Shown one piece after another: positions 6,838 to 35,463 of a stretch of DNA of 39,488 nucleotides. A program made the position numbers and the translations under genes. Each line of letters starts with the position of its first letter. The stretch's first letter is position 1. Source of the DNA: an uncultured Desulfatiglans sp. GTDB taxonomy: Bacteria; Desulfobacterota; DSM-4660; Desulfatiglandales; Desulfatiglandaceae. Below the pieces are notes generated by a model, which worked only from the letters and a program-made list of their open reading frames with translations, was not told the origin of the DNA and did not search any database. The stretch lies in contig LR026961.1 in NCBI GenBank assembly GCA_900498135.1, forward strand, positions 1,879,629-1,919,116, in the 5' to 3' direction.

Positions 6838-6876
6838 CTCCGTGAAACGGGGGTTGCCCAGATGAAGATCTGGAGT

Positions 6877-8457: not shown

Positions 8458-8499
8458 GTCAGCATATAAAGCATAAAATAAATCATTTGTCAATATTTA

Positions 8500-9158: not shown

Positions 9159-9267
9159 GGGGATTCCTCCTCTGCTTCTGATATGGCGGCTACTCGGCCG
9201 CTGGGTTCAGAAACGGAGGATACCCCAGATCCGCTCGGTCAAAAAGATGGGTAGCTCTGACGGTTAC

Positions 9268-9275
9268 GTTTGGCG
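9268..9275. repeat. 8-bp target site duplication, right copy
   Basis: GTTTGGCG follows the right end of the IS66 element and is identical to 6599-6606. No sequence change has accumulated between the two copies. Confidence 0.95.
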
Positions 9276-9348
9276 CGATTCGTTGACACGTTTGGTAGAT
9301 ATCGTTTTGAACGCGCCGATTAATCGACCAATGGGTTTGCGTTTGCCC

Positions 9349-9391
9349 GTAGGGGCGGTTCGCGTAAGGGCGGTTCGCGAACCGCCCCTAC
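9349..9391. repeat. REP-like palindrome, copy 2, partly duplicated
   Basis: A half unit (gtaggggcggttcgc, 9349-9363) is directly followed by a nearly complete unit (9364-9391) with the core gggcggttcgcgaaccgccc. The block lies in frame within the RAYT coding region, after the HUH motif, and encodes an RGGSRTALTRTAP-type linker. Confidence 0.85.
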
Positions 9392-9653
9392 AATCGTCGG
9401 TTATAACGATAATTCCATGTGCATGATTCGGCATGACGACATATTCATCCAACGAAACATGGTCATATTGTTCCGCCAACCATTCCCATGAATCGGCAAC
9501 AATTCTCCCCGTCTCGTTCAACCGCATGTCTCCATCCACAATTTCCCCGAAAAGGCATTCCCGGTTCTGTGTGCAGATGGTCACGAAATAGGCCCCGGTC
9601 TGGGAATAATCGTATCCATGTAGTCGGATGGACCGGCGACGATGGTTGGGTTG

Positions 9654-9673
9654 GGGCACGGCGCGCCGTGCCC
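9654..9673. repeat. Second-type palindrome (ARRAVP linker)
   Basis: gggcacggcgcgccgtgccc is a perfect 20-nt palindrome, flanked by GTAA on one side. It is different in sequence from the GGCGGTTCGCGAACCGCC family but similar in design. It encodes RARRAVP near the RAYT N-terminus. Confidence 0.75.
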
Positions 9674-9697
9674 TTACATCATTGCTGGAATCGTGGC

Positions 9698-16127: not shown

Positions 16128-18072
<1,945 letters not shown>

Positions 18073-18141
18073 TTCCATTCCTCCAATTGTGTTTTTGATA
18101 AGTGTGTTGAGATGTAAAACATTCACTTGCAGATAATCCGA

Positions 18142-18184: not shown

Positions 18185-18604
18185 TCATCCGGCGGTAATG
18201 GGAATTTTCCGCGGAATGGCGCTTTCAACTTTGGGCAACGTGAGCCTCAGCACACCATCGCTCAACTGAGCATCGATACGATCCTGGTCGATGGTCTCGG
18301 ATATGCTGAACTGCCGGTAAAAGCGGCCCACTTCGTACTCGATGAGGATATCCTTTTCGTCAGGACCCTCCCACGGCGCGACATCGCCGGCCAGGGTCAA
18401 CACACCGTTGCACAGATCCACTTTCAGGTCCCGGCTTTGAACGCCGGGCATGTCCGCCAGCAGCGTGATGTCGCGGTCCGACTCCAGGATGTCCACATCC
18501 GGCGTGAAGACCAGACCATTCTTTGTCTGCTCCGCCTTTGAAACGATTTCCTGTTTGCCTTTCGGCACCAACGCCTTGGTTTCTGGCTCGGTCATGGCAT
18601 TCAC
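18185..18604 (-). CDS. Hsp20 / alpha-crystallin small heat-shock protein (copy B)
   Basis: A 139-residue ATP-independent holdase. The alpha-crystallin domain runs from TPDVDILESDRDITLLADMP through RDLKVDLCNGVLTLAGDV to LSDGVLRLTLPKVE, followed by the oligomerisation motif IPRKIPI (an I/V-x-I/V type). The N-terminal arm is short and charged. A purine-rich GAAAGGGGGTG precedes the start; the ATG at 18595 is an alternative. It lies 10 bp after copy A, so both are co-transcribed. The two copies share the fold but are clearly diverged, which suggests hetero-oligomers or separate roles. Confidence 0.95.
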   Translation of the reverse strand: MNAMTEPETKALVPKGKQEIVSKAEQTKNGLVFTPDVDILESDRDITLLADMPGVQSRDLKVDLCNGVLTLAGDVAPWEGPDEKDILIEYEVGRFYRQFSISETIDQDRIDAQLSDGVLRLTLPKVESAIPRKIPITAG

Positions 18605-18614: not shown

Positions 18615-19094
18615 TTATGATTGAGAAGACATTACTGAAATCTGCTTAGCTTTGGACGCCTCGGTTTTGGGCAGCCGCAGGGTCAGCACGCCGTGTTCCA
18701 GTTTGGCGTCAACCCCGTCTGGATCGATCTCCCCGGATAGCGCAACGGCCCGTGAAAACCGGCCGCCCTCACGCTCCCGCCGGTGGTAGCTCGCATTTTC
18801 CTTTTCCTGGATAACACGGCGTTCCCCGGAAATGGAGACGCTTTTGGCCGTGGCTTGGATGTCCAGATCTTCGGACTTCACACCGGGGATCTCCGCCCGA
18901 AGAATGTAGCTTTCCCGGTCTTCGGTTAGATTGACCAGCGGGAATACCCCCATGGTCCTTCCTGCTTTCCAGGTGGACGGCATCCATTCATCAAACAAAC
19001 GGTCCATCCTCCGCCGCAGTCGTTCAAATTCGGCAAAGGGCTTTGCGACGTCAAAGTCCCATGCCGGGGTATCAAAAAATCTTCTTGTCAGCAT
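18615..19094 (-). CDS. Hsp20 / alpha-crystallin small heat-shock protein (copy A)
   Basis: A 159-residue class-A-like sHSP. The N-terminal arm has FAEFERLRRRMDRLFDEWMP. The crystallin domain contains VNLTEDRESYILRAEIPGVK, SEDLDIQATAKSVSISGERR, the FSRAVALSGEIDPDGVDAKL segment and EHGVLTLRLPKTEASKAKQI. The start is the ATG at 19094, with GGAGG eight bases upstream; the frame can be extended to a GTG at 19103 inside that site. It lies 69 bp after manC. Confidence 0.95.
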   Translation of the reverse strand: MLTRRFFDTPAWDFDVAKPFAEFERLRRRMDRLFDEWMPSTWKAGRTMGVFPLVNLTEDRESYILRAEIPGVKSEDLDIQATAKSVSISGERRVIQEKENASYHRREREGGRFSRAVALSGEIDPDGVDAKLEHGVLTLRLPKTEASKAKQISVMSSQS

Positions 19095-19159
19095 GGCACT
19101 CACCTCCTAATAAACATTGATGGTTTACACAGAAAAAAACTGTCGAACGCATGCGTCCG

Positions 19160-19184
19160 GGAATCAGGGCGGACTCCTGATTCC
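19160..19184. repeat. Stem-loop over the manC stop codon
   Basis: ggaatcagg (19160-19168) and cctgattcc (19176-19184) form a perfect 9-bp stem with a 7-nt loop that includes the manC stop. On the minus strand a run of seven T lies about 25 nt further on (near 19131-19137). It may reduce read-through from the sugar genes into hsp20, or mark an mRNA processing site. Confidence 0.45.
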
Positions 19185-20282
19185 AGAAACCGTCATCGCT
19201 TCCGGTTGCGCGATCATGGATTCGACAATATGTTTGACATCTTCCAAGCGATCCTTGTGAGCGACCAGGGTTTTTTCACCCGCGCGGACCACCACCACGT
19301 CGCTGACACCCACCATGGCCAATGTTTCCTGGGGTTGATCGCAAAAGACCAAATTGCCCTGGGCGTCCAGCGCGTGGACCCTGCCTTTGATAAAATTGCC
19401 GTTGGCGTCGTGAGCCAGAAAATCCTGGATCGCCAGCCATCCGCCCACATCCTTCCATGAAAATTCTCCGGCCACGCAACGCACATCCCGGGCTTTTTCC
19501 ATCACCGCATAATCGATGGAAATCCGCGCAAGGGCCGCGAACCGTTCTTGCAACTCATCTTCCCATTGGTTTGTACCCATCTTCTCCACGGCCTTGGTCA
19601 AATGCTCCACGTGCTTTGGAAGATGGAGGGCCAGCTCGCCGAAAATAGCGTCCACGGTCCACACGAACATGCCCGAGTTCCACAAATACCGCCCGGATTC
19701 CAGATATTGCCCGGCGACTTCGGCGCTCGGTTTTTCTTTGAAGGAGACAACCTGAAAATGCTCCACGTCTTGATCCATGGCGGTTTTTTGGCCGACCTCC
19801 AGGTAGCCGTAGCCGGTGGCCGGATGGGTCGGTTTGATTCCGAAGGTGTATAGCGCGCCGGTCTCACGGGCTTCTTTTACTGCCGAAGCCAGGGTCTGCT
19901 GAAAATTTTCAACCGGGTCGATCAAATGGTCGGCCGTCAAGATGACGATCACCGGATTGCCGAAGCGTTTCATGGCGACCAGCGTGCCGAGACACACCGC
20001 TGCGGCGGTGTCCTTGCGCTCGGGTTCACCGATGATATTATGGTCCGGTACGTTAGGAAGTTGCTCTCGGACCAGCGGCGTGAACTGCCGGTTGGTCAGT
20101 ACAATCACGCGTTCATCCGGCACGATGCCAGCAACCCGGTCATAGCTTTTTTGCAGCAGGCTGCGGTCATCAAAAAGTTGGATGAACTGTTTGGGCCGTT
20201 CATGGGTACTGAGCGGCCAAAACCGCGTGCCCACGCCGCCGGCCATGATAATGGCAACCAGGTTCTTGTCGATGCTTTCCAT
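19164..20282 (-). CDS. manC: Mannose-1-phosphate guanylyltransferase (GDP-mannose pyrophosphorylase)
   Basis: The 372-residue enzyme makes GDP-mannose from mannose-1-P and GTP. The nucleotidyltransferase signature IIMAGGVGTRFWPLSTHERP is at the N-terminus, with TADHLIDPVENF, VSFKEKPSAEVAGQYLESG and LWNSGMFVWTVDAIF following. The C-terminal part is the left-handed beta-helix-like region (ALDAQGNLVFCDQPQETLAM). It lacks the C-terminal phosphomannose-isomerase cupin found in about 470-residue AlgA/ManC proteins. A cupin of that kind is instead fused to the glycosyltransferase at 21231-22583 in the same operon. AGATGAGGTG precedes the ATG, and the gene starts 14 bp after the upstream GH130 gene. 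Confidence 0.93.
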   Translation of the reverse strand: MESIDKNLVAIIMAGGVGTRFWPLSTHERPKQFIQLFDDRSLLQKSYDRVAGIVPDERVIVLTNRQFTPLVREQLPNVPDHNIIGEPERKDTAAAVCLGTLVAMKRFGNPVIVILTADHLIDPVENFQQTLASAVKEARETGALYTFGIKPTHPATGYGYLEVGQKTAMDQDVEHFQVVSFKEKPSAEVAGQYLESGRYLWNSGMFVWTVDAIFGELALHLPKHVEHLTKAVEKMGTNQWEDELQERFAALARISIDYAVMEKARDVRCVAGEFSWKDVGGWLAIQDFLAHDANGNFIKGRVHALDAQGNLVFCDQPQETLAMVGVSDVVVVRAGEKTLVAHKDRLEDVKHIVESMIAQPEAMTVSGIRSPP

Positions 20283-20296: not shown

Positions 20297-21244
20297 TCAT
20301 TCAAGCGCGGGACGGGGATTTGAGAGACACAAATCCACCAAATCGGCAATCATTGCCGTGCCGACACACATCACCGAGTCCGCGCCGCCCCAATAGATCT
20401 TTACCGTACCGTCGTCCTCGGCCACTGCGCCGCAGCAGAAAACCACGTTGTGCACGTACCCGCTGATCTCCCATAGGTCCTCGGGTTGAAGTATCCAATC
20501 GTCGGCCACGCCCAAGACCCTTGACGGATCGGCAAGGTCATGCAGGGCCACGCCGAGCCGGTAGACGGCACCGTCCATGGTTTTGAACACGCCGTGAAAG
20601 ATGTTCAGCCATCCTTTTTCGGTTTTGATGGGCGTGGCCCCCGGTCCGACCTTCATTTCATCCCAATGGTAGGCCATGGGCTTGATGACGACCTTGGCAT
20701 CCCCCCAATGCACCAGGTCCGGCGAATAGGAAATCCAGATGGACCACGGTGAGATTTCCGAATGGGGCCGGTCCAACCGGGCATAGCGGCCGCCGATTTT
20801 TTCTGGGAAGATGACCACGTTGCGATAATCCGCCTGGGTGATCAGGGAGATCCGTTCCAGGCGCTCGAAATCCGTGGTTCTGGCCAGGGCCACCCGTACA
20901 CCGTGCTGGGAATAGGCTGAGTAAGTGATCAGATAGCCGTCCTCCATGGGGCAAATGCGCGGATCTTCCACACCAAAGGCCTCGTAGCCGGCGAACGGCT
21001 GGGCCTTGGCCGGGGTGATAAACGGCTCGGGCCTGACCGCGAACCGCACGCCGTCACTGCTTTCCGCCAGACCGATGATCGACCGGCCATTTCTCAGGTG
21101 GGACCTGAACAGCATGACATATTTACCGTTGTGCTTGACCACTCCGGCGTTGTGCACCGTTTCCACCGGGTACGGCACATCATGCTTGGTCAGTATGGGA
21201 TTTTTCTCGTAACGCCGAACGATCGGTTCCTTAGACTCTGCCAT
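20297..21244 (-). CDS. GH130-family beta-mannoside phosphorylase-like protein (copy B)
   Basis: A 315-residue five-bladed beta-propeller protein of the GH130 family. Typical strings are RYEKNPILTKHDVPYPVETV, VMLFRSHLRNGRSIIGLAES, FGVEDPRICPMEDGYLITYS (the EDPR motif with the catalytic Asp), RLDRPHSEISPWSIWISYSP and GPGATPIKTEKGWLNIFHGV. GH130 enzymes reversibly phosphorolyse beta-mannosides to mannose-1-phosphate. There is no signal peptide, so it should be cytoplasmic. The start at 21244 has GGAGG upstream and overlaps the end of the GT-cupin gene by 14 bp. The linkage cannot be read from the sequence. Confidence 0.9.
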   Translation of the reverse strand: MAESKEPIVRRYEKNPILTKHDVPYPVETVHNAGVVKHNGKYVMLFRSHLRNGRSIIGLAESSDGVRFAVRPEPFITPAKAQPFAGYEAFGVEDPRICPMEDGYLITYSAYSQHGVRVALARTTDFERLERISLITQADYRNVVIFPEKIGGRYARLDRPHSEISPWSIWISYSPDLVHWGDAKVVIKPMAYHWDEMKVGPGATPIKTEKGWLNIFHGVFKTMDGAVYRLGVALHDLADPSRVLGVADDWILQPEDLWEISGYVHNVVFCCGAVAEDDGTVKIYWGGADSVMCVGTAMIADLVDLCLSNPRPALE

Positions 21245-22583
21245 AGTCGTCCTCCGCTCTTTCGATATCATCCTCTCCGAAATAGTCGCCGGTCTGCACC
21301 TCGATGAACACCAGGTTGTCCGGTCCGGGATTGCGGATGCGGTGCCAGGTCCCCACCGGCAGATCGATGGCCTGGCCGGACACCCGCTCGATATCTTCGC
21401 TGTTTCGGGTCACCACTGCGGTGCCGCTGAGCACGTACCAGTGTTCGGAGCGCCAGAAATGGCGCTGGTAGCTCAGTCGCTGCCCGGGGTAGACGGTGAT
21501 CCGCTTGACCTTGTGATCCCGCTTGTCCGCCAACACCTCGTAAAATCCCCAGGGCCGATGGTCTTCGCGCCGGGTCTTACCGATAATGGATTCATAAACA
21601 CGGAGGTAATCGTCCACCATGCGCTCCACGCTGAAGCGCGTCTCAACCCACTGGCGGCACTTATGGCGGTCAAGGTCCCTGACATTGGGCAATGACTGAA
21701 CCATCCCGTCGATATCGGCGGTCAAAAAACCGGTCTCCCCGTGGGCGATGATTTCCGGCATGCTTCCCCTGGAAAGGGCCACCACCGGGGTGCCGCAGGC
21801 CATGGATTCCACCACGGAAAGGCCGAACGGCTCGTCGAAACCGATGGGGTGCAACAGGGCGTATGCGCCGCCCAGCAGTTCGTCGCGTTTTTCCGGTCCG
21901 GCGCTGCCCACATAGACGATGCGGTCGCCATCCAAGTGGGGCGCAACCTTTGTGTCGAAATAAGCCTGGTCCTGGATGATGCCCGCCATGATGAGCTTCA
22001 TGCCGGTTCGACGGGCCACCTCGATGCACTCGGCGGTGCCTTTCTCCGGATGGATGCGGCCGAAAAAGAGCAGATATGTTCCTTGATCGGGCCTGAAGGT
22101 GAACCGGCCAAGGTCGATGCCGTGATGGATGACGGCGGCATAGTCCAGCTCCGGCGACTTGTCGGCCTCGCTGATGGCCACATAAAAGCATTTGCCGTTG
22201 TACTTCTTGTACACCGGCAGGATCTTGGGCGACGAGAAGCCGTGGATGGTGGTCACCACCGGCGTCGCGGCCATGCCGGAATAGGTCAGCGGCAGATAGT
22301 CGAAGTGGTTGTGAATCAGGTCAAAGGCATCACCTTGCTCGAACAGCTCGGAAATATGCAGACACTCCCAAACCTTGGGCAGCATTTCGGTGTCTTCTTC
22401 ATATCCCTTGGCACAGACGCTCTTCAGCCGGCCCCGGGTTTCCGAATCGCCGGTGGCGAACAGGGCCACATCGATCCCGCGCGCCACAAGACCCTCGGTC
22501 AGCAGGGAAACCACGTTTTCCCAGGGACCGTAGTGTCTGGGCGGGGTGCGCCAGGCGATGGGTGACAGCATGGCGATCTTCAT
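21231..22583 (-). CDS. GT4 glycosyltransferase fused to a mannose-6-phosphate isomerase-type cupin
   Basis: A 450-residue fusion. Residues 1 to about 345 are a GT-B, family 4 transferase: MKIAMLSPIAWRTPPRHYGP, DLIHNHFDYLPLTYSG, LLFFGRIHPEKGTAECIEVA and the donor-binding E-x7-E in FDEPFGLSVVESMACGTPVV. Residues from about 355 form a cupin of the type II PMI class (HRPWGFYEVLADKRDHKVKR, GQRLSYQRHFWRSEHWYVLS, IDLPVGTWHRIRNPGPDNLV), the domain normally at the C-terminus of ManC/AlgA. The gene starts 2 nt after the GH130 copy A stop, preceded by GGGG. The cupin may be a fructose-6-P/mannose-6-P isomerase feeding the pathway, or only a sugar sensor. The domain calls are firm; the substrate is inferred. 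Confidence 0.88.
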   Translation of the reverse strand: MKIAMLSPIAWRTPPRHYGPWENVVSLLTEGLVARGIDVALFATGDSETRGRLKSVCAKGYEEDTEMLPKVWECLHISELFEQGDAFDLIHNHFDYLPLTYSGMAATPVVTTIHGFSSPKILPVYKKYNGKCFYVAISEADKSPELDYAAVIHHGIDLGRFTFRPDQGTYLLFFGRIHPEKGTAECIEVARRTGMKLIMAGIIQDQAYFDTKVAPHLDGDRIVYVGSAGPEKRDELLGGAYALLHPIGFDEPFGLSVVESMACGTPVVALSRGSMPEIIAHGETGFLTADIDGMVQSLPNVRDLDRHKCRQWVETRFSVERMVDDYLRVYESIIGKTRREDHRPWGFYEVLADKRDHKVKRITVYPGQRLSYQRHFWRSEHWYVLSGTAVVTRNSEDIERVSGQAIDLPVGTWHRIRNPGPDNLVFIEVQTGDYFGEDDIERAEDDYGRV

Positions 22584-22585
22584 GG

Positions 22586-23554
22586 CTACCCCCACATTCG
22601 TCGGTCCTGCTGGTTGTGCTTTTCGAGCCAATCCAGCAACTCCGACACCCGCGCCGTGGCCAGGGCGATGCATTTGTCCGCGCCGCCGTAATACATCCGG
22701 ATATCGTCTCCCTCGGCCAACCAACCGCAGGGGAACACCACCTTGTCCACGTCGCCGACGGTCTCATAGATCTCTTCCGGAGCGAAAACCCATTCGTCCG
22801 CCCTGGCCAACAGCCGGGTCGGGTCCTCCAAGTCCAACAGCGCCAGTCCCAACCGATAAATGCACCCGGAGGCCGTGTTGCGGACGCCGTGGTAAAGGAT
22901 CAGCCACCCTTTTTCGGTTCGCAGCGGCGGCGGCGAAAGACCGACCTTGTTGGCGTCCCACCAGCCGCCCTTGCGGGCCGGCAAAAGTATCTGGTGGTCG
23001 CCCCAATGCTTCAGGTCCGGGCTGAAGGAGATCCAGATATGCGCGCCGACACCGGCGAATCCCGGAACCGGCCGGTGAAGCATGGCCCAGCGCCCGTTGA
23101 ACCGCACCGGGAACAGGGCCGCGTCCTTGTCTTCCGGCGGCATGACGACGCCCTTGCGCTCGAAAGTTTTAAAATCCCTCGTCGTGGCCATGGATACCAG
23201 CGGACCGCCCCGGGAATAAGCCGTGTACACCACGGCCCACAGATCCAGCTCGTCGATTCGGGTGATCCTGGGGTCCTCGATGCCCCAGATCTCTTCGGGA
23301 TGGTTTTCCGGATCGGCCGGCAAGGTGGGCCGTTCATCGATCCGCCAGTCGGTCACACCGTCCCGGCTGCACGCCGCCGTAAGGTGCGATAACCCACGGC
23401 GGTCTTCCACGCGCATGAGCAGCAAGGTGTCGTCGCCGCATCGCGTGGCTGCTGCGTTGAACACTGCGTTGGCCTGGTAGGGAAGGTCCCTTGCCTGGAT
23501 GATGGGGTTGGCGCTGTGCCGTGTAAAAAGCTCCTTGAATCTAGCATCGGTCAT
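22586..23554 (-). CDS. GH130-family beta-mannoside phosphorylase-like protein (copy A)
   Basis: A 322-residue GH130 protein, a clear paralogue of copy B but diverged. It has FTRHSANPIIQARDLPYQAN, LLLMRVEDRRGLSHLTAACS, IWGIEDPRITRIDELDLWAV (EDPR motif), VYTAYSRGGPLVSMATTRDF, AMLHRPVPGFAGVGAHIWIS and LRTEKGWLILYHGVRNTA. There is no signal peptide. GAGGA lies 7 nt before the ATG. Having two paralogues in one operon suggests different chain lengths or linkages, for example one acting on disaccharide and one on longer mannosides, or use in the synthetic direction. It lies between phosphomannomutase and the GT-cupin gene. Confidence 0.9.
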   Translation of the reverse strand: MTDARFKELFTRHSANPIIQARDLPYQANAVFNAAATRCGDDTLLLMRVEDRRGLSHLTAACSRDGVTDWRIDERPTLPADPENHPEEIWGIEDPRITRIDELDLWAVVYTAYSRGGPLVSMATTRDFKTFERKGVVMPPEDKDAALFPVRFNGRWAMLHRPVPGFAGVGAHIWISFSPDLKHWGDHQILLPARKGGWWDANKVGLSPPPLRTEKGWLILYHGVRNTASGCIYRLGLALLDLEDPTRLLARADEWVFAPEEIYETVGDVDKVVFPCGWLAEGDDIRMYYGGADKCIALATARVSELLDWLEKHNQQDRRMWG

Positions 23555-23582: not shown

Positions 23583-24938
23583 CTATTGCAACCCGGACTT
23601 CGCTTCATCGATCTGCGCCTCCACCAGGTCTCTAATCTCCTGCAATCGCGACTCCGACCCGGCTTCAAATCGAAGAACGATAACGGGACTTGTGTTGGAC
23701 GCCCGGACAAGCCCCCACCCGTCTTCGAAAACCACTCGCACACCATCGATATCGATTGTCCGATAGTTGGCGGAAAGCGCCTGTTTTACCTTCTCCACGA
23801 GCTCGAACTTTTTATCATCCGGGCAATCAACGCGGATCTCGGGGGTATTGCAGGTTTTGGGCAGATCCGAAAGATAAGCGGACAGGGGTTTGTTGTCCTT
23901 GGACAAAATCTCCATGAGGCGGCAAGCCGCGTAGATGGCGTCGTCGAATCCGAAATACCGGTGCTTAAAAAAGAAGTGCCCGCTCATCTCCCCGGCAAGA
24001 AGCGCATTTTCATCTTTTAACTTCTTCTTGATGAGAGAATGCCCCGTCTTCCACATGATGGGTACGCCGCCGTTGCGTTCGATCTCGTCGTACATGACTT
24101 GGGAGCATTTCACTTCCCCGATGAACTTTCCGCCAGGATTTTCCTTGAGGATCTCACGGGCGAAAAGGACCATCAGCATGTCGCCATAGATGATTCGCCC
24201 GCTTTCATCCACCACGCCAAGCCGGTCGGCATCGCCGTCAAAGGCGATACCCAATTCCAAACCTTGGTCAACCACGGTTCTGGATAACGTTTCCAAATTC
24301 CTTGGCACCGTGGGATCGGGCTCGTGATTGGGAAAGGTTCCATCCGGCTCCATGAACAGTTCGAAAAGCTTGCAATTCAGCCGTTTCAACACAGGGCCGG
24401 CCGCCAAACCGCCGGTTCCGTTGCCGGCGTCCACGGCCACCCGCATGGGGCGCGCCAATCGAATGTTGTCGGCCAGGTAGTCGCAATAAACGGGCAATAT
24501 ACTGAATTCGTCCAGCGATCCTTCGCCTGAGGCATATTCTCCGGATTCGATGATCTTTTTAAGTTTCTGAATTTCGCCTCCGAAGAGGGTGTCGGTTCCT
24601 AAACAGATCTTGAATCCGTTGTATTCCGGCGGATTGTGACTGGCGGTAACCATGACGCCGCCGTCAGCTCCCAGGTGCCGATTGGCAAAATAAAGAAGCG
24701 GCGTGGGACAAAGTCCCACATCGATCACATCCACACCTCCCCTGGTTATGCCCTTGATCAGGGCATCTCGAATCGCCTGTGAACTCATTCGACAGTCACG
24801 GCCAACCACACAACGTCTGCCGCCGTGCTCCGCGACATAGGTTGCATAGCCGCGGCCGATTTTTTCCGCGTCATCCACATTGAAATCCTTGTCCACGACG
24901 CCGCGGATGTCATATTCTCTAAAAATCATAGGATTCAT
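23583..24938 (-). CDS. manB: Phosphomannomutase / phosphoglucomutase
   Basis: A 451-residue alpha-D-phosphohexomutase, AlgC/ManB type, interconverting mannose-6-P and mannose-1-P (often also glucose phosphates). All four signatures are present: the phosphoserine loop GGVMVTASHNPPEYNGFKIC, the metal loop AFDGDADRLGVVDE, the sugar loop LLAGEMSGHFFFKHRYFGFD and the phosphate-binding loop LVRASNTSPVIVLRFEA. It starts FREYDIRGVVDKDF, as is usual. GGAAG precedes the ATG at 24938. It supplies mannose-1-P for ManC and can also channel mannose-1-P released by the GH130 enzymes into central metabolism. Confidence 0.95.
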   Translation of the reverse strand: MNPMIFREYDIRGVVDKDFNVDDAEKIGRGYATYVAEHGGRRCVVGRDCRMSSQAIRDALIKGITRGGVDVIDVGLCPTPLLYFANRHLGADGGVMVTASHNPPEYNGFKICLGTDTLFGGEIQKLKKIIESGEYASGEGSLDEFSILPVYCDYLADNIRLARPMRVAVDAGNGTGGLAAGPVLKRLNCKLFELFMEPDGTFPNHEPDPTVPRNLETLSRTVVDQGLELGIAFDGDADRLGVVDESGRIIYGDMLMVLFAREILKENPGGKFIGEVKCSQVMYDEIERNGGVPIMWKTGHSLIKKKLKDENALLAGEMSGHFFFKHRYFGFDDAIYAACRLMEILSKDNKPLSAYLSDLPKTCNTPEIRVDCPDDKKFELVEKVKQALSANYRTIDIDGVRVVFEDGWGLVRASNTSPVIVLRFEAGSESRLQEIRDLVEAQIDEAKSGLQ

Positions 24939-24959: not shown

Positions 24960-26186
24960 TTAAAACTCCAAATCCAAAACAGCAGGCTGGCCGGTCCGGG
25001 CCGCCTTGCGCGCCAGCTTGTAGGCCTCGTTGTACTGCCGGGCCACCACTTCCCAGCAGACCACATGGTCGAGGTAGCGTTTCAGGTTTTCTCCCAATTC
25101 CAGGCGCAGTCCCTCATCCGTTGCCAGCTTGACCACCTTCCGGCGCAGCATCTCCTTGGTGGTGAAGAGCAAGCCGCCCTCGCTTTCCAGGGTCTGGGCG
25201 GTCAGCCCTTCCATCGGCGCAGTGGTGATGTAGGGCTTGTTCAAGGCGATGATGCGCGCCAGGGTGCCGGACTGGGTCTCGTCCGTCGAGGGCAGCACAA
25301 TAAAATCGCAGATGGCCATCATCTTGTAATAGTCGTCGCCGCGAGGGACGAACTCGTGGTAATGGGCCAGCCCCTTGCCGGCCAGCACCTTGACATCGGA
25401 TTTCCAATCCTCGTAATCCTGGCGATGATTGGGGTCGCGCATGGCACCGGCGGCCAGCAAGTCCCACTGCTGCCCGGTGTGTGATTTGATTTCGTCGTGG
25501 ATCTCCTCCCACACGGAAAGCAAAATGTCCCAACGCTTGTTGGACTGAATCCAGCCGATCATGCCCACCACGTGGTCGGCCAGTCCGATATTGTCCAGGC
25601 CGAATTCCCTGCGCAGCGCGGGTATCTCGTGCACGCCCCAGCGCTTGTCCGACCTCGCTCCATGCGGCACCACCATGATATTGCGCGGCGTCGGCCACTC
25701 CCGGCCGTGGAAGGTCCAATCCAGCCGCCATTTCTGGTAATGACACTTGAACAGCACCAGGTGGCTGCGCTGGGTCAGTTTATAGATGAAATCCGCCTCG
25801 GCATCCCTCAGCCGCCCATGAACGGTATGGGGTTCCACCACGTTGGGGATATTGCCGATGGCTTCCAACAGATCGAGAAAGCCGTCGTTGTCGTCACCCA
25901 CCCCTCGTGGGCCTTGATATTCGTAGAGGCCGTATTCGTGTTCAAAATGCACCACGTAAGGGTCCAGCTTCTCAATTTTTTTGGCCACCGGACGCCACCA
26001 GTCGCGCCGGGTCATGTCGATGATGGGAAACACGCCGTCGCCTTGGCCGTCGGTGTGGCTGATCACCAGCACCTCTCGATCCGGGTTGGCCTTTTGAATG
26101 AACTCCCTGGCTTCCTCGCAAAAGGTGGCGATGCCGCATAAACGCGGGGGATAGGAACTGACCATTACAATGGGCTTATTGGACAT
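24960..26186 (-). CDS. GT4-like glycosyltransferase of the 'CGIATF' group
   Basis: A 408-residue GT-B protein. It begins PIVMVSSYPPRLCGIATFCE and has VVHFEHEYGLYEYQG, NVVEPHTVHGRLRDAEADFI, HVVGMIGWIQSNKRWDILLS and FIVLPSTDETQSGTLARIIA. The usual E-x7-E donor motif of GT4 is not complete, as the second Glu is Arg (ETQSGTLAR). The gene immediately downstream of relA-like, 26176-28509, encodes a paralogue with the same CGIATF start and SGTLA motif. Its start overlaps the end of that gene by 11 bp. No signal peptide or membrane segment is seen. It probably transfers mannose, inferred from the GDP-mannose genes around it. Confidence 0.85.
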   Translation of the reverse strand: MSNKPIVMVSSYPPRLCGIATFCEEAREFIQKANPDREVLVISHTDGQGDGVFPIIDMTRRDWWRPVAKKIEKLDPYVVHFEHEYGLYEYQGPRGVGDDNDGFLDLLEAIGNIPNVVEPHTVHGRLRDAEADFIYKLTQRSHLVLFKCHYQKWRLDWTFHGREWPTPRNIMVVPHGARSDKRWGVHEIPALRREFGLDNIGLADHVVGMIGWIQSNKRWDILLSVWEEIHDEIKSHTGQQWDLLAAGAMRDPNHRQDYEDWKSDVKVLAGKGLAHYHEFVPRGDDYYKMMAICDFIVLPSTDETQSGTLARIIALNKPYITTAPMEGLTAQTLESEGGLLFTTKEMLRRKVVKLATDEGLRLELGENLKRYLDHVVCWEVVARQYNEAYKLARKAARTGQPAVLDLEF

Positions 26187-28509
26187 GGACCGCTTGCTCC
26201 TTTTGACTAATAACGGTTTCCTCCGTCGCGGTTTCCACGGCGATCTGGCTGCTGCGCATCCGGTTGAGATGGAGCATGGACAGAAAACAAACCAGGGTCG
26301 ACTCCGCGCCCTGGTTGCGGTTGGGCCCGTCCGTGTTGAGTCCGTCGCAGCAGCCCCCGGTCTTGTGGTTGTACAAAGGCGCGTTCAGATCGTTGCGGCC
26401 CAGGAACCACTCCAGGCAGCGCTGGGCATGGGAGACCCATTTCGAATCGTTGGTGGCTTCATACGCCTCGCGGCACGCCTCGATCATGTCCAGCGCTTCA
26501 ATAGGCTGCTGATCGAACCGCGCTTTGGTCCCCCCGTGGGGGTACCAGCCGTTATTGCCCACCGGAACAAAGTGGCCCTTGGGGTCAGTCTGCACCGTCA
26601 TGAGCCATTCCAGGCTTCGCAGTCCCGCCTGGAGCATCTCGCCGCGGTCCATATATCGGCCGCAGAGAATCAGGGCCTGCGCGATCTTGCCGTTGGCGTA
26701 CGTGAGCCGGTCCTCGATCCACGGCCATTCGTCGGTGGCGTTCTGTTTGTATTTTTCGAAAAGTTTATCGGCCAGGGTTTCCCGGACGCGCCGGACCTCG
26801 CTGTCACCGCTGTAGCGGGTCAAGTAGGCGTGAATGCCCCCTAAAGCAAAGGACCAGGTCCGGGGAAAAGTGAAGTCCGTCAGGGCAGGCAGCGCCTTTT
26901 CAAACACCGCCCGGGCCGCGTCCCGGATATCGGCCGATTCCGCCAGGGCCACTGCCTCGCCCAAACCCCAGACCGCACGGCCGTGGCCGTCTTCCGACCC
27001 GACCTGTTCCAGCCAGCGCCGGTCGTACCCCATGAAGTTGCGAAAACGGCCGGTCTCTTCATTGAACGCGTGATGTAAAAAACTGATATAGGTGCAAGCC
27101 AGGTTGGTGGCGGCGTCGCTGTTGGGGATCATTTCCCTGGCCATCAACACGGCGATCAGCGCCCGGGCGTTGTCGTCTGTGCAATAGCCGTGGTAGCGGT
27201 CCGGTACGATGTACTTGGCGTGCTGCAGGATACCGACGTTGTCCGACAGGCGGATGATGTGATCCAGCTTGGGCTGGGGCAGCTCACGGGGTGCCATATC
27301 CATGGTCTTGGCGCGGAATACCGGCCGGGGGGAACGGGCCCGCTCCGCTTTCACCTTATTGAACAGTTCCAGGTACTGGCGCGCCACCTCTTTCCAGATC
27401 ATCTCCCGGCAAAAGGTGTAAGCCCGTTTGCGCATGGCATGGCGCTCCACTTCGTGGTCTAGTAGATCGTTGACCTGCTCGGCCAGGGCCGCTGAATCCT
27501 TGAACGGCACCAGCCGGCCGCGACCCTCGGCCAGCATCTCTTCCGCGTACCAGTAAGGGGTGGCGATGGTGGCCTTTCCGCTGCCCAGGGCATAGGCGAG
27601 GGTTCCGGAAACGATCTGCTCCTGGTTTAGGTAGGGGGTCGCATAGATGTCCGCCGCGCCCAGGAATTCACACAGCTCCTTGAGGTTGACGAAACGGTTG
27701 TGAAAAATCAGATGGTCGCCGATCCCCAGTTCCCTGGCCCTGCGCTGCAGGGACAGCCGGTAGGACTCGCCCTGTTCCTTTTTCACATGGGGATGGGTTG
27801 CGCCCAGGACGATGTAAACCACCTCCGGATGGCGCGCTACAACGGCGGGCAAGGCTTCGATCATGGTTTCGATGCCCTTGCCCGGAGAAAGCAGGCCGAA
27901 GGTCAGGATGACCTTGCGTCCCTCGACCCCGTATTGATCTTTGTAGTAATTCGGGTCCACGAAGGGCACGTCGGGGATGCCGTGGTGAATGAGGACGATT
28001 TTCGCTTCAGGCACCCCGTACACTTCACGAAGGATCTCTCGCGCGCGTTGGCTCATCACCACCAGGCGGTCGGAAAGCTGAGCCACGCGCTTGGCAACGG
28101 CCAATTGGCCGGCCGATGGCGACTGGAGCACGGTGTGCAGGGTGGTGACCACCGGCATGCGCAGGTTGCCGAGCAGTTCCATCACATGCGCACCGTTTTC
28201 GCCGCCGAAGATCCCGAATTCGTGTTGGAGACAAACCACCTCCACCCGGTTCATGTTCAAAAAATCCGCCGCCAGCCGGTATTCGGCCAAAACACGCTGG
28301 TTGACCTCAAAGCGGACCTGGGCCGGATACCGATACCCCTCGGGGATATCGTTCATCACCACGGCCCAGCACTCGCCGTTCGGGTTTTCTTCCGCCAGGC
28401 CCGCCAGCAAATCCGTGGTGAACGTGGCAATGCCGCACTGGCGCGGCAAATGATTGCCGATCAAGGCAATTTTATGTGGGTAAGAAGGGTTGTTTCCCGA
28501 TTTAATCAT
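26176..28509 (-). CDS. GT4-like glycosyltransferase with C-terminal alpha/alpha-toroid domain
   Basis: A 777-residue two-part protein. Residues 1 to about 415 are a GT-B transferase (IALIGNHLPRQCGIATFTTD, VVCLQHEFGIFGGENGAHVM, VILTFGLLSPGKGIETMIEA, NQEQIVSGTLAYALGSGKAT); the second Glu of E-x7-E is Ala. From about 430 on, a helical repeat follows with DRYHGYCTDDNARALIAVLM, GRFRNFMGYDRRWLEQVGSE, DGHGRAVWGLGEAVALAESA and PWIEDRLTYANGKIAQALIL, resembling an (alpha/alpha)6 glycosidase-like toroid. GGGAG lies 8 nt before the ATG at 28509; a longer frame to 28659 runs into the relA-like gene and is rejected. The toroid could trim, bind or measure the glycan made by the transferase. Confidence 0.85.
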   Translation of the reverse strand: MIKSGNNPSYPHKIALIGNHLPRQCGIATFTTDLLAGLAEENPNGECWAVVMNDIPEGYRYPAQVRFEVNQRVLAEYRLAADFLNMNRVEVVCLQHEFGIFGGENGAHVMELLGNLRMPVVTTLHTVLQSPSAGQLAVAKRVAQLSDRLVVMSQRAREILREVYGVPEAKIVLIHHGIPDVPFVDPNYYKDQYGVEGRKVILTFGLLSPGKGIETMIEALPAVVARHPEVVYIVLGATHPHVKKEQGESYRLSLQRRARELGIGDHLIFHNRFVNLKELCEFLGAADIYATPYLNQEQIVSGTLAYALGSGKATIATPYWYAEEMLAEGRGRLVPFKDSAALAEQVNDLLDHEVERHAMRKRAYTFCREMIWKEVARQYLELFNKVKAERARSPRPVFRAKTMDMAPRELPQPKLDHIIRLSDNVGILQHAKYIVPDRYHGYCTDDNARALIAVLMAREMIPNSDAATNLACTYISFLHHAFNEETGRFRNFMGYDRRWLEQVGSEDGHGRAVWGLGEAVALAESADIRDAARAVFEKALPALTDFTFPRTWSFALGGIHAYLTRYSGDSEVRRVRETLADKLFEKYKQNATDEWPWIEDRLTYANGKIAQALILCGRYMDRGEMLQAGLRSLEWLMTVQTDPKGHFVPVGNNGWYPHGGTKARFDQQPIEALDMIEACREAYEATNDSKWVSHAQRCLEWFLGRNDLNAPLYNHKTGGCCDGLNTDGPNRNQGAESTLVCFLSMLHLNRMRSSQIAVETATEETVISQKEQAVHVQ

Positions 28510-28522: not shown

Positions 28523-29998
28523 TCACGGGTCCGGGGCCACGGCGTTGGCCGACGATTCCCGGTCGCCGGCCAGCGCTTCAAACGGACGCAATGCTCCCGC
28601 AGCTGAAAGGGCCTTTTTGGCCGTGACCTCGGCAAAGCGAGAACCGACCGCTGGTCCATCTGCCGGAACCGCTATGGAATCTCCGTCCCTAAGCGCGAAA
28701 TCCAAGGCGACGTCACGGCCGTTTACTTTCACCGTTGCATCCTGGGGGACATGGGCATTGATGATTTTCAGGTAATCGCGCACCGTGGCTTTTTCCGCCA
28801 GGCGAACAATTCGGCCGCCGTTTCCAAAAACCACCAGGTGGTCCCGAAAAACCTGCCGATGCAGCCGCTCGATAAACGCCTCGCTGTTGGCTGATTCCCG
28901 AAGCTGGCGGACAAGGCCTTCCATCCATTGCGTGCGATGGTTGTTGCGCTCAGCAGCCGCGGCCTCGTTTTTATAACGCCAATGTGCCGCAGTGCCGTGC
29001 TCTGCCTCCAGGTGCATCAGCTCAGTGCGCACCTGAAACTCGATGGGTTTGTGGGAGATTTCGCGTACCGGATAGACGCAGGTGTGCAGGGACTGATAGC
29101 CATTGTCCTTGGGAAGACCGATGTAATCGTCGAAGGTGCCGGGAATCGGCTTGAAATGGGCGTGCAACAGCCCCAGCACGGTGTAGCATTCCGGAACCGA
29201 TGTCACGATGACCCGCAGCCCGACCCGGTCCATGATCTCTTCCAGGGTCTTGCCCGTGCGCGCCATTTTACGACGAATACCGTGCAGGCTCTTGGTGCGG
29301 CCCTGGACTCGTCCCTGGATGCCGCTGTTTGCCAGCAACCGTTTGACGCCAGCCAGAAGGATCTCAAGGCACTTGTCGTCTTCCAACTGGATGGGGGAGA
29401 CTTTTTCGCGCAGCTTTTCATAGTCTTGCGGGTCCAGAACGTGAAAGCAGGCGTCCTCCAACCGACGCCGCAAATCCCCAAGACTCAAGCGATTGGCTAT
29501 GGGCACCAGCAGGTCGAGGGTCTCCTGGGCCATCTGCTGGGCGGTCGTTTCGCATGCGTCGGTCGCACATTCCAAAGCCAATAGGCGAAATGTAATGTAA
29601 AGAACGGCCTTTCGGGGAATACCGTCAATAGACGTCAACAACGCATGAATGTTTTCACTTTCACGTGGCTGGTCGTCTATTGGTATAAAAAAGGAGTCCC
29701 GCAGGTCTTCAAGCGCGGTGGCGACTTCCGGACCGAAGAATTCCCTGACATGGCCGATATCGGTCAGGTTTTGCCAAATAAGGGGAGCCAAGAGCGCGCC
29801 GGCGATGGTGATCGCGTCGGCGTCCTGGTCAAAAAGCAGGTTGGCAGCCTTATAACCTGCTGAATTTCCGTCGCATAATTTTTCCTGCGTATAAGCGTGT
29901 GCGCGGGTCAGCAGGTCGGCGTCGGCCGCCTGGAAGGTATGCTTTACTTTTTCAATAAATAGGCTGTCATCAGCCAATCCCAGAGTATCTCGTCCCAT
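28523..29998 (-). CDS. RelA-like (p)ppGpp synthetase with degenerate HD domain and no C-terminal regulatory domains
   Basis: A 491-residue RSH-family protein. The HD hydrolase region (about 20-150) lacks its metal ligands: the site usually HD is ALLAPLIWQN, so hydrolysis is unlikely. The synthetase domain (about 230-345) is well kept, with RTKSLHGIRRKMARTGKTLE, GTFDDYIGLPKDNGYQSLHT and EFQVRTELMHLEAEHGTAAH. TFDD (288-291) resembles the ExDD of monofunctional RelA rather than the RxKD of bifunctional Rel/SpoT. A TGS domain follows (about 385-447), and then a short tail; the helical, zinc-finger and ACT domains of ribosome-bound RelA (about 740 residues) are missing. The first GT gene starts 14 bp after its stop. 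Likely a stress alarmone source at the head of the mannose/chaperone directon. Confidence 0.88.
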   Translation of the reverse strand: MGRDTLGLADDSLFIEKVKHTFQAADADLLTRAHAYTQEKLCDGNSAGYKAANLLFDQDADAITIAGALLAPLIWQNLTDIGHVREFFGPEVATALEDLRDSFFIPIDDQPRESENIHALLTSIDGIPRKAVLYITFRLLALECATDACETTAQQMAQETLDLLVPIANRLSLGDLRRRLEDACFHVLDPQDYEKLREKVSPIQLEDDKCLEILLAGVKRLLANSGIQGRVQGRTKSLHGIRRKMARTGKTLEEIMDRVGLRVIVTSVPECYTVLGLLHAHFKPIPGTFDDYIGLPKDNGYQSLHTCVYPVREISHKPIEFQVRTELMHLEAEHGTAAHWRYKNEAAAAERNNHRTQWMEGLVRQLRESANSEAFIERLHRQVFRDHLVVFGNGGRIVRLAEKATVRDYLKIINAHVPQDATVKVNGRDVALDFALRDGDSIAVPADGPAVGSRFAEVTAKKALSAAGALRPFEALAGDRESSANAVAPDP

Positions 29999-30067
29999 TT
30001 GCCCGAAAAGTCCAGAATCAACAATATGTCAACGTATCTATTGGGGTTTTAGGCTATAAAGCCTCCT

Positions 30068-30292
30068 TTACAGGTCATCGGGCAGCAGCAGCCTTCCCAG
30101 TTCGATCATCCTGTCGCAATAGGTTTCGACACATCTCAATGCCATCTTGGATGGCATGAACTGCCCGTTCTCCCACCGGTTGACGGTGGCATAACTCACC
30201 CCGATCTCTCTAGCAAAATCCTCCTGGCTAAGGTCGAGCTGGACCCGGACCTCCTTGATAAGTATCACGAAATCGTACTGTTTGATCCACAA
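30068..30292 (-). CDS. XRE-family regulator behind the second hsd operon
   Basis: A 74-residue HTH_3 protein: VRVQLDLSQEDFAREIGVSY, then ATVNRWENGQFMPSKMAL and a helical tail. I choose the TTG at 30292 because GGGAGG lies 6-7 nt upstream; longer frames to 30349 or 30418 overlap the promoter. It is related to the regulator at 12984-13217, which also appears to use TTG. It lies 207 bp after hsdR of system 2 and about 70 bp before the relA-like gene, so it could act on either. Confidence 0.8.
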   Translation of the reverse strand: MWIKQYDFVILIKEVRVQLDLSQEDFAREIGVSYATVNRWENGQFMPSKMALRCVETYCDRMIELGRLLLPDDL

Positions 30293-30337
30293 GACCGATC
30301 CTCCCGTCACCTGGTCGCCAGGAAATAATTCAATTAA

Positions 30338-30498: not shown

Positions 30499-33492
30499 TT
30501 AGATTTGATAGGTGACCCCGAAGACGGTGTCCGAAAGCCACTTCTTGAAGCCGGGGTTGTCGCAGAATTGCTTGAACAATTCGGTGTGGTCGGAAAGCAG
30601 GTCCATCATGACCCGCTGCAGGGCCTTGTCGTGTTCAATGCGGGCGTTCTGCTTGTCCGAGTTGCGCATGGCGTTCTGGTAGGCTTTGTCGGCGGCCACC
30701 TTTTCGGGAATCTCCTCGCTGATGACCTTGCCGATTTTGTCGGCGTCTTTCCACTCGATATTGCCGAACTGTTCGTTGAACGTCTTGATGATGTTGCTCA
30801 AGTGATCCAGCTCCGCCTCGGGTTTGCGGCCGCCGCCGCTGGTGGGAACCGGCCCGATTTCCGCATCCTCGTCGGCCAACTGCAACGCCATCTTGGCTTT
30901 GACTTCCACCCGATAGCTGTCCATATCGATAGTTTCCAGGATGCCCTTGGACAGATCTTCCTCCTTGGGCGCGGGCAGCTTGGGAATCAGGAAGTTCAGA
31001 AAGATGGACAATTTTTCCCAATCAGCACTCGTATACGGCAGAATGGCCGCCAGGAAATTGTAGGTACGGACAAACGCCTTGGCCTTGCCCTTGAAATCCA
31101 CCTGGCCGTCCTCATCCAGATCGGTCAGGTAGTTCGCCACAGCGCCGTCTAGGATCGGGTCCAGGGTGTCTCGGTCCGCACCGTTGATGTATCGCTCCAC
31201 CAGCTGTTCCACATCGCTGCCGGTGTACAACTGGTAGCTGTCCAGATCCGCTTTCAGGTCGTGCAGCTTGTCGGGGTCGGTTTCCTCGCTCAGGATCGTG
31301 GTTCGGTAATACTGGGTGAAAGCCGCCTGGATGGTGTCGGCGTCATTCATGAAATCGAGCACGAAAGTGTCGTGCTTGCCGGGGTGGGCGCGGTTGAGCC
31401 TGGAAAGCGTCTGTACCGCTTTGATGCCCGCCAGGTGCTTGTCGACATACATGGTGTGCAGCAACGGTTCATCGAAACCGGTCTGAAACTTTTCGGCGGC
31501 AATCAGGAAACGGTAAGGGGCCTTGCGGAACTGTTCGGGGATTTTGGCGCTGGGAAAGTCGTTCAGCGATGCCTCGCTCACCTTGCGGCCGCCGTATTCA
31601 TGCTCGCCCGAAAACGCCACGATGGCCCGGTAGGGGCTTTTACGCTCTTTCAGATAGGCTTCGAAGGCGCTGAAATACTGGACCGCCCGCTCGATGCCGC
31701 CTGTGACCACCATGGCGCGGGCCTGCCCGCGAATCTTGTTATGGCCGATGACCTGCTCGTGGAAATGGTCCACCATGATCTCGGCCTTTTGCCGGATGGC
31801 GTGATCGTGGGATTCAACATATCGCCGGAGCTTCTTTCGCGCTCTTTTGGTATCGAATTCCGGATCGTCGGGCACCGTTTTCATCAGCCGGTAATAGCTG
31901 CCCACTGGGGTGTAATGCTTGATCACATCGAGAATGAAGCCCTCTTCGATGGCCTGTTTCATGGTGTAGCTGTGAAAAGGTCGGTGCTTCACCTTGTCCC
32001 CTTCGGGCCAGGGATCTCCGAACAACTCAAGGGTCTTGTTTTTGGGCGTGGCGGTAAACGCAAAATAACTGGCGTTTGCCAGCATCTTGCGTGATTCCAT
32101 CAGCCGGTTGATTTCGTCTTCGGTGGTGTCCTCTTCATCGGGACCGCCCTGTTCGGCCAAAGCCACGTTCATCTGGGCGGCGGTCCGTCCTCCCTGGCTG
32201 GAATGGGCTTCATCGATGATGATGGCGAATTTGCGGCCCCGGTGCTCGTCCCCGATCTCATCCAAAATGAATGGGAACTTTTGAACCGTGGAGATGATGA
32301 TTTTCTTGCCGGACTGCAGGAACTTCCGGAGATCTCCGGCTCGCTGGGCCGCGCCGATCACCGCCGACACCTGGGCAAAGCGTTTGATGTTGTCCCGGAT
32401 CTGTTTGTCCAGGACCCGCCGGTCGGTCACCACCACAATGGAATTGAATACCGGGCGGCCGTCCCGCTTCAATTCCACCAGCTGATGGGCCAGCCAGGTA
32501 ATGGAATTGCTCTTGCCCGAACCGGCCGAATGTTGGATGAGATAACGCTTGCCAGCACCGTTGGATGCAGCATCGGCCAACAGACGGCGGACCACATCAA
32601 GCTGGTGGAACCGGGGAAAGATCTGTTTTCGGCGCTTGCGACCCCTCTCGTCGGTCTCTTCCACGATGCCCGCATAGTTTTCGATAATATCCGTCAGAAC
32701 AGTTTTGCTCAGAACCTCTTTCCAGAGATACTCGGTCTCCAGTCCGTCCGGATTGGGCGGATTACCGGCCCCGTCGTTGAACCCCTTGTTGAACGGCAGG
32801 AACCAGCTGCCCTTGCCCTTGAGATGGGTGCACATGCGTACCTCGTGATCATCCACTGCAAAATGGACGACGCAGCGGCCGAATTGAAACAGCAGTTCCT
32901 TGGGGTCCCGGTCGTGTTTGTACTGGTTGACGGCATCTTCAACCGTCTGCTTGGTCAGCCGGTTCTTGAGTTCAAAGGAGGCCAGCGGCAATCCGTTGAT
33001 GAACACCGCCAGGTCAAGGGCGAGCTGGGGGGTGTCCTTGCTGTAGTGCAACTGGCGGGTAACGCTGAAAATGTTGGCGGCGAATCGTTCGGCAGCTTTC
33101 CGGTTGCCGGGGGTAGGGGTGCCGTAAAACAGATTCACGGACGCCGGACCGTGGCGAACGCCCTTGCGCAGGATATCGATGATCCCCCGTTTAGCCACTT
33201 CCCCTTGAAGCCGGTGAAGAAATTGCTGGCGCTTGACGCCCTCCTGACCAATTTGAAGCGTCTCGACGACCTTGGGCTGTGTCTTTTCCAAAAAGGCCAT
33301 CAGCTTGACCGGGTCCACGGCATGGTCGGAATCATAATCCGCCGCAGCCCCTTCCACATAACCGGCCCCGCCGTATCCGGCCTGAGGGTCCCGCACCTGG
33401 CTGGGTTCGCTTTCCTCCGGATGGCTTTTTCCGGTAAGCGATTCGATGATCAGGGTTTCCAGCCCTTTTTCGCTTGTGTCGGTCGTCGGCAT
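30499..33492 (-). CDS. hsdR: Type I restriction enzyme R subunit (system 2)
   Basis: A 997-residue HsdR, not closely similar to the one at 1725-4976. The nuclease domain shows DLAVFINGLPLASFELKN (D...ExK). The helicase motor has RYLIQHSAGSGKSNSITWLA (Walker A), FAIIIDEAHSSQGG (DEAH) and YFAFTATPKNKT, with QTLSRLNRAHPGKHDTFVLD as motif VI. The C-terminal helical part (EAELDHLSNIIKTFNEQFGN) contacts the methylase core. The ATG at 33492 overlaps the hsdS stop by one base (TGATG); a TTG six bases upstream is an alternative start. The gene is intact and continuous with hsdM and hsdS, so this system may be fully functional. Confidence 0.95.
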   Translation of the reverse strand: MPTTDTSEKGLETLIIESLTGKSHPEESEPSQVRDPQAGYGGAGYVEGAAADYDSDHAVDPVKLMAFLEKTQPKVVETLQIGQEGVKRQQFLHRLQGEVAKRGIIDILRKGVRHGPASVNLFYGTPTPGNRKAAERFAANIFSVTRQLHYSKDTPQLALDLAVFINGLPLASFELKNRLTKQTVEDAVNQYKHDRDPKELLFQFGRCVVHFAVDDHEVRMCTHLKGKGSWFLPFNKGFNDGAGNPPNPDGLETEYLWKEVLSKTVLTDIIENYAGIVEETDERGRKRRKQIFPRFHQLDVVRRLLADAASNGAGKRYLIQHSAGSGKSNSITWLAHQLVELKRDGRPVFNSIVVVTDRRVLDKQIRDNIKRFAQVSAVIGAAQRAGDLRKFLQSGKKIIISTVQKFPFILDEIGDEHRGRKFAIIIDEAHSSQGGRTAAQMNVALAEQGGPDEEDTTEDEINRLMESRKMLANASYFAFTATPKNKTLELFGDPWPEGDKVKHRPFHSYTMKQAIEEGFILDVIKHYTPVGSYYRLMKTVPDDPEFDTKRARKKLRRYVESHDHAIRQKAEIMVDHFHEQVIGHNKIRGQARAMVVTGGIERAVQYFSAFEAYLKERKSPYRAIVAFSGEHEYGGRKVSEASLNDFPSAKIPEQFRKAPYRFLIAAEKFQTGFDEPLLHTMYVDKHLAGIKAVQTLSRLNRAHPGKHDTFVLDFMNDADTIQAAFTQYYRTTILSEETDPDKLHDLKADLDSYQLYTGSDVEQLVERYINGADRDTLDPILDGAVANYLTDLDEDGQVDFKGKAKAFVRTYNFLAAILPYTSADWEKLSIFLNFLIPKLPAPKEEDLSKGILETIDMDSYRVEVKAKMALQLADEDAEIGPVPTSGGGRKPEAELDHLSNIIKTFNEQFGNIEWKDADKIGKVISEEIPEKVAADKAYQNAMRNSDKQNARIEHDKALQRVMMDLLSDHTELFKQFCDNPGFKKWLSDTVFGVTYQI

Positions 33493-35438: not shown

Positions 35439-35463
35439 GTCGGCTCTCCGTTCAACTTGGTCG

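Follow-up and report, generated by a model that had tools for sequence, protein, structure and literature searches.

An RSH protein with a dead hydrolase domain, an intact-looking synthetase site and no C-terminal regulatory domains is encoded by an uncultured Desulfatiglans sp., at the head of a run of sugar and chaperone genes. We put the probability at about 55% that this short RSH is a ribosome-independent, monofunctional (p)ppGpp synthetase, which is controlled by its expression and serves a stress-protectant sugar/chaperone response. This view builds on the architecture of the protein, the loss of HD residues, the intact synthetase site, purifying selection and operon linkage, all of which can be read from the sequences. 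The analysed stretch of DNA (39,488 nt of contig LR026961.1) is referred to as the window, and coordinates given without a locus name relate to it. The gene is composed as follows:

28523..29998, minus strand: short RSH gene, 491 aa, with pseudo-HD, (p)ppGpp synthetase and TGS domains (Pfam, residue map, predicted structure)
29414..29998, minus strand: pseudo-hydrolase HD-fold domain, residues 1-195, catalytic residues all lost (HD_4, E 2e-8; residue map; model)
28949..29413, minus strand: synthetase domain, residues 196-350, with TFDD and invariant active-site residues (Pfam; alignment; dN/dS ~0.09)
28658..28843, minus strand: divergent TGS domain, residues 386-447, with N414 as the equivalent of RelA H432 and the G441 equivalent deleted (residue map; model)
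28526..28657, minus strand: unconserved C-terminal tail, residues 448-491 (pLDDT <50; dN/dS mostly 0.5-1.3)

An earlier note on this DNA had placed the RSH gene at 28523-29998. These coordinates hold, but the gene runs on the minus strand (29998..28523), and on the plus strand stops interrupt the reading frame. Pfam matches RelA_SpoT (PF04607) with an E value of 3e-34 and 118 bits versus a cut-off of 27, while the match to HD_4 is weak (E 2e-8) and that to TGS stays under the cut-off (E 0.035). NCBI models of full-length RSH families cover residues 51-444, with scores far under their cut-offs. The AlphaFold2 model (mean pLDDT 77.6, pTM 0.73) resembles the catalytic halves of Rel from B. subtilis, S. 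aureus and S. equisimilis and of ribosome-bound RelA (Z 28-33). By Pfam and model together, the domain order of a long RSH (HD-fold, SYNTH, TGS) is present, and the protein does not follow the SYNTH-only plan of small alarmone synthetases (SAS), since it keeps the pseudo-HD and TGS folds. As the earlier note had stated, it ends after TGS at 491 residues: the model fits a solved TGS structure at residues 387-447 (3hvz_E, Z 9.2, rmsd 1.8 over 60 residues), and a 44-residue tail of low confidence follows.

Within the first domain, ALLAPLIWQN aligns to ALLHDVIEDT (H to A, D to P, E to W, D to Q), HxGQxR has been deleted or replaced, and F and A occupy the positions of the later D and N. Mapping on E. 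coli SpoT and RelA revealed that the HD catalytic positions are changed in all aligned orthologues. They have AP instead of the HD pair, with AS or TP in a few cases; W and a variable residue mostly take the place of the ED pair, F/L that of the later D and A/E/Q/R that of the N. The replacement of the HD motif described in the earlier note is thereby confirmed for H, D, E, D, D and N, also among the aligned orthologues. Residues ~17-190 of the model still match small alarmone hydrolase (SAH) folds with Z ~13. Judged by residues and model, the hydrolase domain is catalytically dead with its fold kept.

In the synthetase domain all 14 short RSHs compared retain the equivalents of RelA G251, R252, K254, K262, D275, R280, K315 and N317, and of Y319, Q320, H323, E335, Q337, R339 and H354, and they do not differ in the KxNxYQSxHT loop or in the ExQxR strand. 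The short RSH carries GTFDD, and TFDD is invariant across the family, which agrees with the conserved synthetase core with TFDD reported before. By these residues the synthetase site is intact. TFDD replaces EFDD of RelA and RxKD of SpoT/Rel; compared to EXDD both D are kept and E is changed to T. EXDD has been linked with a preference for GDP and RXKD with a preference for GTP (PMC3153485). By analogy TFDD may be a weak hint at GDP preference, and a weak hint only, because a long Chloroflexota Rel with intact HD motif (L052) has the same GTFDD. For the same reason TFDD is not tied to the loss of the hydrolase.

Two further features mark the domain: a 3-residue insertion (YPVREIS) beside the active-site strand, which is conserved in the family and not in the long RSHs compared, and S, N or G after GRxK, where H is the usual residue. 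S at this position is also typical of SAS. Both features could fit a pyrophosphokinase re-purposed for the tRNA 3′ end (toxSAS/CapRel), for adenine nucleotides (Tas1) or for another nucleotide, and fold relatives with such activities are found at lower structural scores (CapRel, Z 10.7; Tas1, Z 8.4). The canonical Y301 and the KxNxYQSxHT/ExQxR signature, closest to long Rel, speak against this, as do the adjoining sugar and chaperone genes. No antitoxin-like partner was recognised among the assigned neighbours of the short RSHs, which are GT4, HTH, otsB and GroES genes. We consider such a change of substrate improbable. The earlier note had suggested a re-purposed pyrophosphokinase as an alternative, with GDP-mannose-related nucleotides among the substrates to try; this was not supported, as the active site has the canonical form and there is no sign of a different substrate. 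In one orthologue (L043:9001-10287) KMA runs straight into HKPIEF, so that ~60 residues are missing from the synthetase core without a frameshift, through either an assembly error or a real loss.

The helical, ZFD/CC and RRM/ACT domains are absent from the short RSH, and its orthologues are alike in this respect. In RelA, H432 contacts the CCA end of the A-site tRNA and is required for activation by deacyl-tRNA on the ribosome (PMC7058999). At the equivalent position all 14 short RSHs have N, C or G, and every long RSH compared has H. Since the TGS domain has no H432 equivalent and the zinc-finger, RRM/ACT and helical domains are absent, RelA-type ribosome sensing looks impossible. The earlier note had reached this view from the absent zinc-finger and ACT regions; the helical domain and the TGS histidine can be added to the losses. 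From the missing domains and the lost H432 we infer that the short RSH works independently of the ribosome.

The same genome (one contig, 4.8 Mb) encodes a normal Rel of 713 aa with HD and RFKD motifs. Relatives of the short RSH were found in at least 17 further loci, all from Thermodesulfobacteriota (the old Deltaproteobacteria) and ~39-93% identical; 16 loci came from a scan of named genomes, and L103 (genome G352) was added. Hosts with a name are Desulfosarcina cetonica, Desulfatitalea, Desulfoferrobacter, Syntrophaceae, Desulfarculaceae, Desulfococcus and a Geobacteraceae MAG. The distribution is patchy, with the short RSH in 4 of 395 genomes of the phylum (E <= 1e-80) and in 4 of 61 close relatives; it was not found in the single same-genus genome searched. 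The earlier note had proposed to place the protein in an RSH phylogeny together with the long Rel. In a quick maximum-likelihood tree, the 13 usable short sequences form one clade of their own (SH-aLRT 100), apart from Thermodesulfobacteriota Rel, Chloroflexota Rel, RelA and SpoT. E. coli RelA, the single RelA included, falls outside this clade in a tree in which long branches meet and which does not fix the sister group.

Selection was estimated as pairwise dN/dS (NG86) per domain in six comparisons. Values were ~0.09 (0.07-0.11) for the synthetase, 0.27-0.39 for the pseudo-HD domain and 0.16-0.41 for linker plus TGS; they were mostly ~0.5-1.3 for the tail, for which two pairs were lower or undefined. 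These values bear on the idea that the gene is a decaying duplicate of the housekeeping Rel, to which its truncation, its dead HD domain and some broken copies (L043, L050) would fit. The low dN/dS, the presence of a long Rel with intact motifs and the conservation of the family as a single clade contradict this, and it is extremely improbable. The earlier note had named a decayed gene in a genome with no other RSH as the finding that would refute it; with the 713-aa Rel present and purifying selection found, a decayed housekeeping gene is ruled out. The orthologue L050:1801-3194 (genome G006) is split over two frames, by a sequencing error or as a pseudogene, and several genes of the D. cetonica draft (L036) are likewise split.

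Downstream of the short RSH the following genes were assigned:

26176..28509, minus strand: GT4a, 777 aa, GT4 glycosyltransferase with a C-terminal part without Pfam match (Pfam; 13 bp after RSH)
24960..26186, minus strand: GT4b glycosyltransferase (Pfam)
23583..24938, minus strand: phosphomannomutase/phosphoglucomutase (Pfam)
22586..23554, minus strand: GH130 mannoside phosphorylase a (Pfam; PDB match)
21231..22586, minus strand: GT4c fused to a mannose-6-P isomerase-type cupin (Pfam)
20297..21271, minus strand: GH130 mannoside phosphorylase b (Pfam; PDB match)
19164..20282, minus strand: ManC-type mannose-1-P guanylyltransferase, GDP-mannose synthesis (Pfam)
18615..19103, minus strand: Hsp20 a (Pfam)
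18185..18604, minus strand: Hsp20 b (Pfam)
17785..18126, minus strand: GroES (read from sequence)
16128..17768, minus strand: GroEL, 546 aa (read from sequence)

The minus-strand run from RSH to groEL at 16128 bears out the sugar/chaperone directon headed by RSH that the earlier note had described. The glycosyltransferase gene does adjoin the RSH gene, but the gap from the RSH stop to its ATG is 13 bp and not 14. Both GH130 proteins have the beta-1,4 enzyme TM1225 as best PDB match, and beta-1,2-mannoside phosphorylases were matched as well. Known systems that come close are the GH130 beta-1,2-mannoside phosphorylases Teth514_1788/1789 of Thermoanaerobacter and Lin0857 of Listeria, and mannogen turnover (PMC8950772). 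The presence of two GH130 genes together with mannose-1-P/GDP-mannose genes suggests that an intracellular mannoside is made and broken down, and the GDP-mannose/GH130 operon would then provide an intracellular mannoside store or protectant. The C-terminal ~350 aa of GT4a have no Pfam match beyond the GT4 part; residues 610-767 gave a weak phmmer match to 7tem (putative exported protein YPO2471). By ORF reading, two type I restriction-modification gene sets flank the directon (1725-12981 and 30499-37608, minus strand), and a transposase-like ORF (6877-8493) lies inside the first of these.

GT4a is the next gene after RSH in 13 of 18 loci (window, L036, L038-L044, L046, L049-L051), the two frames often overlapping by a few bases. 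This linkage is held between short RSHs that are only ~40-50% identical (L049, L044, L042). In the locus of genome G352 (L103:8056-12117) RSH instead heads otsB-otsA (trehalose), and three oppositely oriented Hsp20 genes lie upstream of it; in L037 the genes that follow RSH are groES-groEL, and two Hsp20 genes are found on its other side. In L045, L047 and L048 neither GT4a, otsB-otsA nor groES-groEL was recognised next to RSH. Of 15 RSH loci, 9 have Hsp20/GroEL genes at a distance of up to 12 kb from RSH, versus 1 of the 10 GT4a loci without RSH (one-sided Fisher test, p 0.016); with a limit of 7 kb it is 8 of the 15 (p 0.034 in the same test). In this comparison the RSH-less loci have somewhat shorter flanks, and the loci are related and not independent. 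Because of these flank lengths and relationships the chaperone association with RSH is modest and counts as supporting evidence only. The earlier note had suggested dedicated alarmone signalling; a conserved family tied to sugar and chaperone genes was found, and the signalling activity itself is predicted from sequence.

The GT4a operon is commoner than RSH (37 versus 4 of 395 phylum genomes), and 10 copies of it that were inspected have no RSH in front. RSH is thus an add-on which the pathway does not need. Since most GT4a-type operons are without RSH, and RSH itself is scattered (4 of the 395 genomes of the phylum, none in the single same-genus genome searched), one may ask if the protein is an ordinary accessory alarmone synthetase and the sugar/chaperone linkage a matter of shared mobility or history. 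We consider this unlikely though not negligible, as the GT4a linkage is kept at ~40-50% identity and RSH recurs at another protectant operon and at chaperone genes (L103, L037). The tight coupling to GT4a (a gap of 13 bp in the window, and frames that overlap in several loci) could also be understood if RSH were a regulatory protein without useful synthesis, whose pocket senses (p)ppGpp, GDP or GDP-mannose and which controls the coupled glycosyltransferase. The retained pseudo-HD fold and the loss of part of the synthetase core in L043 agree with this. But the metal- and substrate-binding synthetase residues checked are all invariant and the domain is the most constrained one, as is expected for an enzyme, and RSH also occurs beside otsBA or groESL without GT4a. 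A purely regulatory role is therefore rather unlikely.

In the preferred reading, a ribosome-independent synthetase under expression control, the short RSH would act as a second RSH beside the normal long Rel and transfer pyrophosphate from ATP to GDP or GTP, while its hydrolase domain would stay as a catalytically dead scaffold. Without zinc finger and RRM, and with a TGS lacking the tRNA-reading histidine, starved ribosomes should not be able to switch it on. The enzyme would be constitutively competent and would add an alarmone branch to the stress response; as the ribosome cannot activate it, its output would most likely be set by the amount made. The dose would depend on expression, with the XRE regulator or the upstream element described below as candidates, and a ligand or partner of the pseudo-HD and TGS domains may tune the protein as well. 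The long Rel with its intact HD motif would remove the alarmone. The most likely job, like catalysis, product, induction and stress role as a whole, is inferred from sequence: (p)ppGpp would be raised as the cell turns on a protectant carbohydrate (the GDP-mannose/GH130 mannoside or trehalose) and Hsp20/GroEL.

Upstream of RSH three features were found:

30068..30298, minus strand: gene for an XRE-type HTH protein ahead of RSH, which may regulate the operon (Pfam HTH_3)
30015..30043, minus strand: upstream element CAATARATAMGTTGACATATTGTTGATTC, conserved and present once in the window, no chance match expected
29988..30008, minus strand: conserved TTTCGG block before the RSH ATG (alignment; tentative hairpin)

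An XRE-type HTH gene lies upstream of RSH in five loci (window, L036, L038, L039 and L041). It probably belongs to the sugar operon, since such a gene (L105:5532-5750) is also found directly upstream of GT4a in L105, a locus without RSH. The element CAATARATAMGTTGACATATTGTTGATTC is recognisable in L037-L041 and L103, thus including loci with a different downstream operon. TTTCGG directly precedes the ATG in 11 of 12 aligned rows, with L037 as partial exception, and is kept although the remaining upstream region differs in L042-L044 and L050. No clear Shine-Dalgarno sequence was seen before RSH. A start-codon hairpin may exist, in which TTTCGG would pair with codons 3-5 and the AUG would lie in the loop. 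Pairing is consistent in 87.6% of the cells of the aligned rows (98% in the inner helix). Since almost all base changes affect one side only, shuffles reach the same numbers of changes, and the start region folded as a single sequence is not unusual (z -0.4), the hairpin is not established. A search for CIRCE, sigma32-, sigma54- and sigma70-like sites shared by the RSH upstream regions gave scattered matches and no common class. A more far-reaching scheme, in which a ribosome-blind stringent factor heads protectant operons (mannoside, trehalose, GroESL), its translation is gated by the start-codon hairpin, stress such as heat and not amino-acid starvation triggers the alarmone, and the substrate is perhaps GDP from GDP-mannose glycosyltransfer, appears doubtful to us.

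In the accepted view long RSHs are bound up with the ribosome, and small RSHs consist of a synthetase domain alone. The family of the short RSH would stand in between, with a body that looks derived from Rel, hydrolase and ribosome sensing removed, and a fixed place in protectant/chaperone loci. Known relatives share some of its features, RshC and RshD being compared by their descriptions. RelA[hS] of gamma- and beta-proteobacteria (PMC3153485) likewise combines a dead HD domain with an active-type synthetase, and its acidic EXDD motif compares with TFDD in the short RSH, where both D are kept and T replaces E; but it has the full CTD with helical, ZFD/CC and RRM/ACT domains as well as the TGS H432. 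RelA is reported never to occur in Rel-encoding organisms (Atkinson 2011, PMC3153485), whereas the short RSH co-occurs with Rel. RshC[HS] ends after TGS and is a second copy beside Rel, but has a conserved HD site and is found only in Bacillus (PMC3153485). RshD[HS] is a second RSH in delta-proteobacteria including Syntrophobacter, a relative of Desulfoferrobacter (L044); its HD domain is conserved and no truncation is reported (PMC3153485). If the Syntrophobacter RshD belongs to the short RSH family, the family is partly known already. The SAS RelP and RelQ share freedom from hydrolysis, the absence of ribosome domains and an assumed control by expression; they are without HD or TGS, while the short RSH keeps pseudo-HD and TGS and is closest to long Rel in sequence and fold.

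In the literature searched we found no description of a dead HD domain combined with an end after TGS and a histidine-less TGS, and no relevant report that links an RSH to Hsp20, trehalose or GDP-mannose loci. A second, reduced alarmone enzyme is encoded beside protectant-sugar and chaperone genes in some sulfate-reducing bacteria. If its synthetase works, it would offer a natural test of whether (p)ppGpp can be made without reference to translation as part of the response to heat or osmotic stress, and of the functions that remain to a dead HD domain and to a TGS without the histidine. A viral collection gave two weak matches to the short RSH, neither of them a close relative. L119:1776-3653 (IMGVR_UViG_3300028591_008352), on a contig filed as viral, is a long RSH of 625 aa with HD, synthetase-like and C-terminal parts, whose synthetase motifs look altered.
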